A stretch of DNA of 64,000 nucleotides from Hyphomicrobiales bacterium (GTDB lineage Bacteria; Pseudomonadota; Alphaproteobacteria; Rhizobiales; Xanthobacteraceae): the NCBI GenBank assembly GCA_021730985.1, contig JAKFYI010000013.1, positions 1 to 64,000 of the forward strand, written 5' to 3'. The notes below the pieces were generated by a model. The model made no database searches and was not told the origin of the DNA. It saw only the letters and a list, made by a program, of their open reading frames with translations. This document shows positions 48,699 through 51,379 of the stretch, piece by piece. Position 1 is the first letter of the stretch. Each line of letters opens with the position of its first letter. The position numbers were made by a program, and so were the translations under genes.

Positions 48699-48735
48699 CG
48701 AGTATTTGTCATATTGGCGCTCAAGGGAGCGACCA

Positions 48736-49650
48736 ATGGCTATTCCTAAGATTTACACGGACGAAACGGCGGCCCGGAAACACCTCGAAGCCCTACTTTG
48801 GGCCGAGGGTCCGATCTGCCCCCATTGCGGCGTCGTGAACGAAGCAACCGAACTCAAGGGCAAATCTACACGCCCCGGCGTGTGGAAATGCCGCCCTTGT
48901 CAAAAGCCCTTTAGCGTCACGGTCGGCACCGTATTCGAGCGGTCCAAAATCCCGCTTCACCAGTGGGTCTGGGCCGTCGATATGTACACCGCGAGCAAGA
49001 AGGGCTTTTCGGCCCACCAGCTCCACCGCACGATCAAGGTCACTTACAAAACCGCCTGGTTTATGGCGCACCGCATCCGCACCGCTATGGGCGACGTAGC
49101 CGACGCCCCGATGGGCGGCGAAGGCGGACAAGTGCAGGCCGATGAAACCTACTACGGCAACACGTCGAAGCGGTCCAAGTCCTATCGCAAGGGCTTGAAG
49201 CGCAAGTCTGTCGTGGTCGCCCTCGTTGACCCTGCAAACGGTGAAGCCCGCGCCTTCCATATGGTGGACGGCGCTGGTGCCAACGTGGTCCGCGAAATTC
49301 TCGTTACCAACGCGGATCGCAAGGCCACGCTCGTTTCAGATGAAAGTTCGCTCTACACGAAAGTCGGTCGCGAATTTGCCGCCCACCAGACTGTGCTTCA
49401 CGCGGGCCGCGAGTACGTCAACAAGGACGGCTTCACCACAAACAACGTCGAAAACTTTTTCGGCACGTTCAAGCGCGGTATGCGCGGCGTCTATCATTTC
49501 TGCGGAGAGCAACACTTGCAGCGCTACTTGAACGAATTTTCGTTCCGGTATTCCAACCGTTCTGGCCTTGGCGTTTCCGATGCACTCCGCGCCGAACGCG
49601 CGCTCAAGAGCATCGCTGGCAAGCGGTTGACGTACCGCAGGCCTCACTAA
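48736..49650 (+). CDS. IS1595 family (ISXO2-like) transposase
   Basis: A 304-residue transposase from the ATG at 48736 (GGGAG upstream). An N-terminal zinc ribbon (CPHC ... CRPC, about residues 27-58) binds DNA ends. The DDE-type catalytic core of the ISXO2 domain follows: QADETYYG, VSDESSLY and TTNNVENFFGTFKRG near the C-terminus. No frameshift or truncation, so likely functional. Confidence 0.95.
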   Translation: MAIPKIYTDETAARKHLEALLWAEGPICPHCGVVNEATELKGKSTRPGVWKCRPCQKPFSVTVGTVFERSKIPLHQWVWAVDMYTASKKGFSAHQLHRTIKVTYKTAWFMAHRIRTAMGDVADAPMGGEGGQVQADETYYGNTSKRSKSYRKGLKRKSVVVALVDPANGEARAFHMVDGAGANVVREILVTNADRKATLVSDESSLYTKVGREFAAHQTVLHAGREYVNKDGFTTNNVENFFGTFKRGMRGVYHFCGEQHLQRYLNEFSFRYSNRSGLGVSDALRAERALKSIAGKRLTYRRPH

Positions 49651-49703
49651 GATCAAGAACAAGAAACAGTTTGCGAAACGGTTTTTGGCATGGAGGAAGC
49701 GAA

Positions 49704-50285
49704 ATGTCTGATGGACAAAAGACCGGGGGTTCCGATCCTGCCGAAATGTATTGCCTGTTCGCAGGCATGGTCGATCAAGTGGCCGTTCAAAGATTTCACA
49801 ACGGACTTGCTCTGTGCAGTGCGGCTGGAGTGAAGCACATGCACATTCTGTTTCAGTGTGCCGGCGGAATAGTTGGGGATGGCATCAGCCTCTATAACCT
49901 GTTCCGCGCATCGCCTGTCGAGCTCACGCTGTACAACGTGGGGGCTGTTTGTTCGGCGGGCGTCATTGCCTACTTGGGCGCAAAGAACCGTAAGACCAGC
50001 ACGTATGCCGCCTTTATGATTCACCGCGCCTATATAAGCCCCACCGCAGCCACATCGGATCGACTGTCCGCCGCCGCCGACCAAATAGTTATCGATGACG
50101 ACCGTATCGAAAGGATTTTGAAATTGCATACCAAAATCCCCCCGGATAAATGGGAAATACATAGATTTGCCGATGTCTGGATTTCAGCAAAAGATGCCGT
50201 CGATTATAAGATCGCGGACGGCATCGGAGAGTTTGCCCCTCCGGTAGGACAGCAAATATTCAACGTTTGGCCGCCGCAGCAGTAG
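49704..50285 (+). CDS. ClpP-like serine peptidase, IS passenger
   Basis: A 193-residue protein from the ATG at 49704 (GGAGG at 49692-49696). It has the ClpP/crotonase fold with a complete catalytic triad by motif: Ser84 (GAVCSAGVIAYLG), His107 (FMIHRAY) and Asp157 (FADVWISAKDAVDY). The oxyanion loop reads CAGG (residues 52-55) in place of the usual SPGG. No signal peptide and none of the N-terminal loops that dock Clp ATPases are obvious, so it may act alone. It lies inside the IS, 53 bases after the transposase. Its cargo role is unknown; it could affect transposase stability or host fitness (inference). Confidence 0.9.
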   Translation: MSDGQKTGGSDPAEMYCLFAGMVDQVAVQRFHNGLALCSAAGVKHMHILFQCAGGIVGDGISLYNLFRASPVELTLYNVGAVCSAGVIAYLGAKNRKTSTYAAFMIHRAYISPTAATSDRLSAAADQIVIDDDRIERILKLHTKIPPDKWEIHRFADVWISAKDAVDYKIADGIGEFAPPVGQQIFNVWPPQQ

Positions 50286-50774: not shown

Positions 50775-50799
50775 CCGGTACGTCAAGTATATAAGTGCG
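50775..50799 (-). repeat. Right terminal inverted repeat of IS element
   Basis: 25 bases, CCGGTACGTCAAGTATA and the following eight, complementary to the left terminal repeat with one mismatch. Confidence 0.93.
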
Positions 50800-50807
50800 A
50801 CTAAATA
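50800..50807. repeat. Right 8-bp target site duplication (ACTAAATA)
   Basis: Exact copy of the octamer at 48666-48673, directly abutting the right inverted repeat. Confidence 0.93.
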
Positions 50808-50816
50808 CCCATCATT

Positions 50817-51085
50817 GGCGGCGCTGCGGTCTTATGACCGTGGCGCCGCCCGAGGGCCTACGAGGGCGCAACCGGTGCGCCATTCGAGGTTCGCGGTGGA
50901 GCGCCGGGAGGCGCAGCGGCCTACGTCATTGGCCGCGCGCACCCCGCAAGCGGCGGTCCCCGGTAACGGGGATACTGCCGTGGGTGTGATGGTGGGCCGC
51001 GAGGTCCGCCCGGCAGACTCGTCACCTGCCGTATAGGGGCGGCGATCCGCCCTGGCGCCTCCCGGCGCTCCATCCCCTCGGGGGA
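50817..51085 (+). ncRNA. Candidate structured non-coding RNA (or structured dispersed element)
   Basis: The sequence folds by eye into a compact multi-helix structure. A 15-bp hairpin with a TTAT loop (50817-50850, two G-U pairs) is followed by an arm with GGCGCA/TGCGCC (50857-50889). Then a perfect 18-bp helix pairs 50897-50914 with 51055-51072 and encloses five back-to-back stems: 50916-50936; 50938-50988, which contains TCCCCG-GTAA-CGGGGA; 50991-51010, an 8-bp stem with a GCGA loop; 51011-51031, CGGCAG/CTGCCG; and 51037-51052, GGGCGG/CCGCCC. A last hairpin TCCCC/GGGGA ends at 51085. GTAA and GCGA are GNRA tetraloops. Almost no bases between stems are unpaired. Strand is uncertain; plus is favoured by the GNRA loops. 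No family recognised. Confidence 0.6.
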
Positions 51086-51200
51086 GAAGGAAAACAGGGA
51101 TGCGGGCTCGACCCAGGGCGCCCGAAAACAAAGCCCCGGGCGGCGAAGCGTTGGCTAAGGCTGGTGAGTGGATGGTTGCGATGACGAGCTGTTTCCTCCG

Positions 51201-51284
51201 TTCGTCCCCGCGAAAGCGGGGACCCAGGGTCACAAATTCAAGCCGTGCGGTGGCCCTGGATTCCCGCTTGCGCGGGAATGAGCG
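51201..51284. repeat. Dispersed repeat with GTCCCCGCGAAAGCGGGGAC hairpin
   Basis: The left part is a hairpin (GTCCCCGC GAAA GCGGGGAC), the right part another (TTCCCGC TTGC GCGGGAA), with CCAGGG / CCCTGG pairing between them. Repeats of this type are widespread in proteobacterial intergenic regions (recalled). It lies next to the decayed tRNA-Lys and may have taken part in the rearrangement that removed its 3' end. Confidence 0.75.
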
Positions 51285-51322
51285 GGGTGAGAGCACGGCA
51301 AATCCGATATAAGGCGGCACGA

Positions 51323-51375
51323 TTCCAAGACCCGCTGATTAAGAGTCAGCTGCTTCACCAACTGAGCTACGCGCC
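51323..51375 (-). pseudogene. Decayed tRNA-Lys (CTT) fragment
   Basis: On the minus strand the sequence reads GGCGCGTAGCTCAGTTGG and then an intact anticodon arm GCTGA-CTCTTAA-TCAGC, matching alphaproteobacterial tRNA-Lys(CTT) through the variable loop (GGGTC). The T-arm, 3' acceptor strand and CCA are absent, and the D-stem is broken (GAAGC where GAGC is expected). It therefore cannot be a working tRNA. It lies 4 bases before the serS start, antisense to it. Confidence 0.8.
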
Positions 51376-51379
51376 TTCC

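Follow-up and report, generated by a model that had tools for sequence, protein, structure and literature searches.

The locus and its fold

The window, by which we mean the whole stretch of 64,000 nucleotides that was analysed, contains a candidate structured RNA on the + strand between tatC and serS. The interval between tatC and the RNA also holds, at 48706-50285, an IS1595-type transposase gene (PF12762, PF12760) and a Clp-protease-like gene (PF00574).

A preliminary description of this DNA had drawn a compact multi-helix fold at 50817-51085, and its main structural elements were recovered. The perfect 18-bp closing helix, here called P3, is formed by a 5′ strand at 50897-50914 and a 3′ strand at 51055-51072, and it encloses five predicted arms with little linker between them. 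These are arm a (50916-50936, loop UACGUCAUU), arm b (50938-50988, two stacked stems with a GNRA loop GUAA at 50963-50966), arm c (50991-51010, GNRA loop GCGA at 50999-51002), arm d (51011-51031, loop ACUCGUCAC) and arm e (51036-51053, loop GAUC). Upstream of the closing helix lie a 15-bp hairpin with the loop UUAU (50817-50850) and then a second arm (50850-50896), whose seven-nucleotide tip loop A-ACCGGU (50870-50876) contains a self-complementary hexamer that we propose to be a kissing loop. A sequence search did not recover these two elements in the other copies of the same genome, where matches begin at query base 113 (50892) or later.

The feature is larger than first drawn; its probable extent is from the promoter motif (50782-50799) up to the conserved 3′ end near 51158. 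The promoter-like motif GTCAAGTATATAAGTGCG, assigned to class III below, has a −10 element TATAAG at 50790-50795 and a poor −35 hexamer. The whole RNA would thus run from 50802, about 7 nt past the −10 element, to 51158, at a conserved GGCTAA. P3 is followed by the hairpin P4 (UCCCC/GGGGA, 51073-51085), which occupies the same position in the tails of other copies, and by a purine-rich single strand GAAGGAAAACAGGGAU (51086-51101). Beyond 51085 there is one more hairpin, P5 (CGGGC/GCCCG, 51103-51107/51120-51124), which together with a predicted H-type pseudoknot and its A-rich linker spans 51103-51140. The pairs between the P5 loop and the downstream strand (51112-51114/51138-51140 and 51116-51119/51133-51136) are present in the minimum free energy (MFE) structure of the window copy. 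The conserved 3′ end, CGGCGAAGCGUUGGCUAA, lies at 51141-51158; no terminator was identified for the RNA. All these elements are on the + strand.

The predicted fold of 50802-51160 has an energy of −226.3 kcal/mol. When the region was folded on both strands, none of 100 shuffled sequences reached the native stability on either strand, and the z-score against the shuffles is stronger on the + strand (−8.48) than on the − strand (−4.49).

Copies in related genomes

The possibility had been raised that this is a dispersed element, and the copies are indeed many and scattered, with no fixed downstream gene. In the own genome there are 25 matches to the region, some of them fragments of one copy, and the best match besides the region itself shows 95 % identity over 224 bases. 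For wider searches we used a profile of the 3′ part of the RNA, called R1, which starts at the 3′ strand of P3 and, with 0.59 bits per position, is a weak one. P4 and P5 are misaligned in the MAFFT alignment A1, whose sole use was for building a search model. With R1, 14 places are found in the own genome when E is required to be below 1e-17, and 27 when the limit is E ≤ 1e-3; the genome carries at least 14 strong copies. Within the genus, 10 of 11 genomes match, with 0 to 41 matches per genome at E ≤ 1e-3. The one without a match, G005, carries instead a form that we call type B, a divergent and longer relative with extra 5′ sequence (L018:1090-1620, L017, L038, L231, L245), which was found in 34 of 149 genomes of the bacterial family.

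A BLAST search with the window copy gave matches in 14 of 41 relatives, namely all 11 genomes of the genus (own included), two others of the same bacterial family and one of another family, the last being short and weak (43 bases, E 1.4e-4). Across the same bacterial family, R1 matches 86 of 296 genomes (own included) in 21 of 47 genera. The order-wide and class-wide samples were searched with stricter filters, and there R1 matched two of 249 genomes, both from this family, and one of 385, the own genome, with no match outside the source's bacterial family. In an 18-mer scan of named genomes, both strands of P3 were present in Pseudolabrys, Pseudorhodoplanes, Rhodoplanes and Afipia assemblies, among the matches listed. 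Single-arm matches in unrelated taxa, e.g. Actinomadura, were treated as chance, judged on the best 80 of 113 matches. Seven matches of the 18-mer on viral contigs were likewise ascribed to chance similarity to the P3 strand and set aside, since these contigs gave only short R1 matches (best per contig 16.7-26.1 bits). A plasmid search with the window copy gave no match.

The copies share a common anatomy. From 5′ to 3′ they consist of a promoter (in many), the hairpin P1, often a hairpin P2 with the loop CGACAAY, P3 with its arms, P4, a purine-rich strand around GGAAAAAGGGA, P5 with its downstream-pairing loop, and often an end at GCGUUGGCUAA. A purine block of the GGAA(A) type stands 3′ of the core in 82 of 90 copies. 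The number of arms within P3 is quite constant: of 94 cores, 85 have four, five have five, three have three and one has one, while four arms occur in 39 of 282 controls with shuffled interiors. The window copy, with its five arms, belongs to a minority. Several assemblies (L014, L015, L105, L112, L159 and others) have arm b in another form, with a conserved loop beginning CCACCCCCTCAA and an internal strand GGAATCTTGG/GGAAGCTCGG.

The preliminary description had seen no convincing gene in the region, and the larger set of copies agrees with this. The three overlapping ORFs at the window copy have no Pfam match, and a filtered ORF overlaps the core in 5 of 94 copies. Taken modulo 3, the core lengths divide into groups of 39, 28 and 27, and even in the best of the six frames 46 of 90 copies are without a stop. 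A conserved open frame, as expected of a protein-coding gene, was not found among the copies.

Promoter motifs on the RNA strand

Promoter motifs were scanned for within 330 bases upstream of the copies. Of 91 upstream regions, 31 have a sigma-70-like motif, TTGAC-N15..19-TAnnnT, on the RNA strand, where 1.1 are expected; it occurs in one of 91 on the other strand and in none of 87 downstream regions. A second class, TTATCCCC-N-TTAT, is present in 16 of 91 regions against none in the controls, and a third, the GTCAAGTATA block, in four of 91, these being the window copy and L124, L212 and L222. Altogether, 51 of 91 upstream regions have one of the three classes and 40 have none.

Near the promoter, 14 of 91 copies also carry boxes of the form GTTC-N7-GTTC, which we take to be the alphaproteobacterial LexA box. 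Eight are in forward orientation (upstream of L031, L044, L055, L106, L125, L032, L184 and L192) and six in reverse (L065, L074, L090, L148, L149 and L191), while about 0.5-0.7 are expected for each; the controls have 0 of 87 (downstream) and 2 of 94 (cores). The boxes are not confined to one species, as copies that bear them occur in G007 together with the JAIESI01 assembly, in G004 and in three further assemblies. Their presence suggests SOS control of some copies.

Covariation and strand

To avoid circularity, the covariation test was done without folding, by comparing directly the flanks of conserved loops in 94 distinct cores, and the reference shuffles ignore relatedness. With that proviso, covariation among the homologues is present, and the anchored stems stay complementary while their letters change. 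The [C/T]TCGCAA loop, with 123 distinct flank pairs, shows three to four Watson-Crick types at all eight positions; at positions 2, 3 and 4, the Watson-Crick pairs number 119, 118 and 112, compared with shuffled means of 82, 62 and 58. Positions 3 to 8 of the GATCGCAA loop (28 flank pairs) and positions 2 to 5 of the CGACAAY loop (18 flank pairs) lie above all 200 shuffles. The GTAA stem of arm b (17 flank pairs) is mostly invariant; its pairs 2 and 6 are above every shuffle, with clear covariation at pair 2. The TACGTCA loop, which is of the same type as that of arm a, has six flank pairs, too few for covariation.

The G-U pairs had been read as favouring RNA over a DNA palindrome. In the anchored stems G-U indeed outnumbers A-C, as expected for an RNA of the + strand, with 79 to 22 at TCGCAA pairs 2-8, 17 to 3 for GATCGCAA, 10 to 0 for CGACAAY and 5 to 0 at GTAA pairs 1-5. 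The exceptions are the first TCGCAA pair, where A-C exceeds G-U by 25 to 9, and GTAA pairs 6-8, by 12 to 9. The MFE is lower on the + strand in 43 of 56 cores. A crude strand test on the MFE folds gave no bias (inner G-U 166 and 164 on the two strands), which in our reading comes from the UUGCGAG form of the loop, since this form allows an additional pair on the minus strand; in a stricter test the counts were 53 against 26.

The pseudoknot was tested on 28 chosen copies, with twelve loop bounds set by hand. The summed pairs between the P5 loop and the downstream strand amount to 124, compared with 104 ± 3.5 after shuffling, and none of 2000 shuffles was as high (maximum 117). In these copies, the predicted 3′ pseudoknot covaries.

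These results bear on a scenario in which the structure acts as DNA, i.e. as a cruciform or as a folded single strand of the integron-like or Y1-transposase-like kind, with transcription being incidental. The inverted repeats and the dispersion of the copies would be natural in this case, and the neutral outcome of the crude strand test is compatible with it. The excess of G-U over A-C in the anchored stems, the GNRA loops and the covarying pseudoknot are in conflict with it, however, as are promoters confined to one strand and one side of the copies, and we consider it quite improbable. The original designation as a candidate undescribed structured RNA, on the other hand, is borne out at the sequence level by the covariation, the G-U excess, the covarying pseudoknot and the promoter motifs on the RNA strand, along with the lack of a matching Rfam family discussed below.

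The palindrome at the hairpin tip

We now turn our attention to the tip of the 5′ hairpin. In its strict form, a hairpin loop of 7 nt in which the last six letters are self-complementary, it is found in 44 of 94 upstream regions. Markov controls contain 3.85 such regions on average and 9 at most, and the form occurs in 3 of 87 downstream regions and 3 of 94 cores. In a looser form, with any palindromic hexamer at a hairpin tip, 80 of 94 copies have it, compared with 15-23 in Markov controls and 14 of 87 and 12 of 89 in the flanks; the controls suggest that chance could account for some 15-20 of the 80. One of six common hexamers is at the tip in 65 of 94 copies against 0-5 in controls, the set of hexamers having been picked after viewing the data.

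The recurrent tips are TCATGA (31 copies), CGATCG (18), CTCGAG (7), TCTAGA (5) and CTTAAG (3, all in the own genome), and there are rarer ones such as ACCGGT and CTATAG. The change thus preserves the palindrome, with five hexamers each in at least three copies. In PMC12286853, a switching of letters under retention of self-complementarity is used as an argument for intermolecular kissing loops in the OLE and GOLLD RNAs. A putative kissing loop supported by palindrome-preserving change, as would mark an RNA of the OLE/ROOL/GOLLD kind, is accordingly present in the family described here.

Exchange of parts and the serS site

In the own genome, the 5′ 100 bases, the core and the tail of the copies have separate histories. 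The copy on contig 2 and that on contig 5 at 26.7 kb have identical cores (1.00) and unrelated 5′ parts (0.53), while the same contig 2 copy resembles the one on contig 5 at 45.5 kb in the 5′ part (0.88) and differs from it in the core (0.62). Between the copy on contig 44 and the first one on contig 5, it is the tail that differs (0.61), with the 5′ part (0.96) and core (0.98) alike. As judged from these identities, the three parts are swapped separately between copies.

The copy in the window belongs to a site that is occupied in several genomes. In G000 (the window), G003, G006, G007 and G008, the distance from the end of the R1 match to the serS gene downstream on the same strand is 61-222 nt, and in G001 serS is preceded by a type B relative. 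An RNA member thus occupies this site in six of the nine same-genus genomes with an identified serS, and G005 and G010 have none there; the inspection covered all nine except G004, and one serS gene of G003. This arrangement could suggest that the RNA is a leader or attenuator acting in cis on serS, or on whichever gene follows each copy. Many copies are located elsewhere, though, and in G005 and G010 serS does without the RNA. With genes called by a simple third-position filter, 36 of 83 copies have the next downstream gene on the strand of the RNA and 47 have it on the opposite one, while a leader should be followed by a same-strand gene in nearly all members. We therefore regard a leader function as very improbable.

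A hairpin with the ACCGGT tip is present at serS in G000, G006 and G008, and in G003 with a short stem. We considered the possibility that the serS copies share a common 5′ part with a replaced core. The 5′ 100 bases of the window copy, however, are no closer to the serS copies of G006 and G003 (0.50 and 0.51) than to other copies (median 0.54), so this reading was dropped and the odds of a selfish element, discussed next, were raised slightly. The core plus tail of the window copy is closest to a paralogue in the own genome (0.88), with 0.68-0.69 to the G006 and G003 serS copies, which are 0.74 alike. It is possible that the locus is one inherited gene with exchanged parts, or that members arrived repeatedly at one site.

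The strongest rival to a cellular RNA is a selfish dispersed element, in which promoter, folded RNA and tail spread together without use to the cell and the fold serves its own spread. The wide variation in copy number within one genus given above speaks for this, as does the location of several copies at contig ends, which is typical of repeats. So do the sharp 3′ end, past which at GCGUUGGCUAA the flanks differ between copies and are unrelated, the mosaic make-up of the copies, and the perfect 18-bp inverted repeat formed by the P3 strands; the low similarity of the serS 5′ parts fits separate insertions. It is harder to reconcile with the member at the same serS site in six of the nine same-genus genomes that have an identified serS, with the several promoter classes that have been retained, and with compensation that preserves the stems over many genera. 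No target-site duplication was seen by eye in the few copies inspected, and the IS1595 transposase that lies about 1.1 kb upstream in the window is absent between tatC and the RNA in G006, where the RNA and serS come immediately after tatC. We judge the selfish element to be unlikely, while giving it real weight.

Relation to known RNAs and repeats

The fold had not been recognised as a known RNA family, and an Rfam search agrees with this. At gathering thresholds, the whole window yields only two tRNAs, and at lax thresholds the matches in nine loci and in 50780-51180 are all below the cut-offs. The known-repeat check, for which Rfam and the literature compared here served as catalogues, gave no match, and no description of such an RNA family was found among the top-ranked, open-licence papers.

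The number of large ornate bacterial RNAs is small, and for most of them the function is open. The Rfam search showed no homology of the present family to OLE, ROOL or GOLLD, which are presumably included in that database. There are nevertheless similarities. According to PMC12286853, those RNAs are likewise large and ornate with kissing-loop elements, and the tip palindrome that switches letters yet remains self-complementary has its counterparts in OLE L9.3 and GOLLD L21a. The present family is smaller, about 300-400 nt compared with a ROOL example of 659 nt (PMC12286853). It also differs in having tens of copies in some genomes, several promoter classes and modules exchanged between copies, and in the R1 samples it was found in one bacterial family only.

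Related bacteria also have repeats of their own, those of Bradyrhizobium. PMC5082802 describes Br-REP1, Br-REP2 and the multicopy BjsR sRNAs, which resemble the present family in being repeated, folding and intergenic in related bacteria, and which are transcribed there. Br-REP1 is a single short palindrome by this account (PMC5082802), and had no match in the window at up to 3 mismatches. BjsR5, 6, 7 and 10 have 2 to 4 copies in the same account (PMC5082802), and the BjsR sRNAs may yet be related to the present family.

One more option considered was that of a stand-alone guide RNA (omega-RNA) for nucleases of the TnpB/IscB type. The HEARO/omega-RNA is a dispersed folded RNA with a pseudoknot, features it has in common with the present family; size, ornate fold, the 3′ position of the pseudoknot and the dispersed copies make up a general likeness. 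The TnpB zinc-ribbon family is found in none of the 11 same-genus genomes, while six of 14 control genomes are positive, and Rfam gives no match to the HEARO model at lax thresholds. A search for the IscB N-terminal family gave 0 of 11 with no positive among its controls, and so carries no weight. We consider this option very unlikely.

Proposed mechanism

In our preferred reading, to which we assign a probability of about 0.63, the copies constitute a family of independently transcribed structured RNAs of about 300-400 nt that would act in trans as RNA complexes. What the sequences support directly is the fold, the covariation, the strand bias, the switching of the palindrome, the promoter motifs, the distribution and the module exchange; transcription, dimerisation and a scaffold role we infer from these. 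The family would be an undescribed one whose members probably dimerise.

Each copy would be transcribed from its own promoter. The transcript would begin with a 5′ hairpin that exposes the self-complementary hexamer at its tip, often followed by a second hairpin and then by P3 with, mostly, four arms, and its 3′ part would consist of a hairpin, the purine-rich strand and the pseudoknot. Copies with an identical tip palindrome could then pair through a kissing loop into dimers, while the arms would offer recurrent loops (UCGCAA, GAUCGCAA, GUAA) to the partner or to other RNA chains. Recombination would swap 5′ part, core and tail, such that a genome holds a shifting set of variants.

A more far-reaching version, which is tentative and which we think the less probable outcome, is that the dozens of paralogous RNAs in a bacterium sort themselves into dimer classes by means of the switchable palindrome. 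Together with several promoter types, some with LexA-type boxes, and interchangeable cores and tails, this might amount to a modular, self-recognising assembly system. The classes would then, on the same tentative footing, be those of UCAUGA, CGAUCG, CUCGAG, UCUAGA and CUUAAG, and rarer ones such as ACCGGU.

If the preferred reading is true, naturally varied paralogues, with tens in some genomes, would make RNA-RNA assembly testable by comparison within one cell. It is the self-complementary tip, in at least five recurrent versions, and the interchangeable parts that make such a comparison possible. The family is also a clear case of module exchange among non-coding RNA genes.

Finally, two minor features lie between the RNA and serS in the window. 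One is a separate short palindromic repeat, tccccgcgaaagcgggga ... ttcccgcttgcgcgggaa, at 51200-51281; comparable sequence can be recognised by eye close to several of the other RNA copies. The other is a tRNA-like stretch on the − strand at 51314-51376, just upstream of serS (L001 2035-2097), with an Rfam tRNA score of 26.8 bits (E 0.1), below the cut-off. By eye it resembles one half of a tRNA-Lys, and it may be the relic of an integration site.
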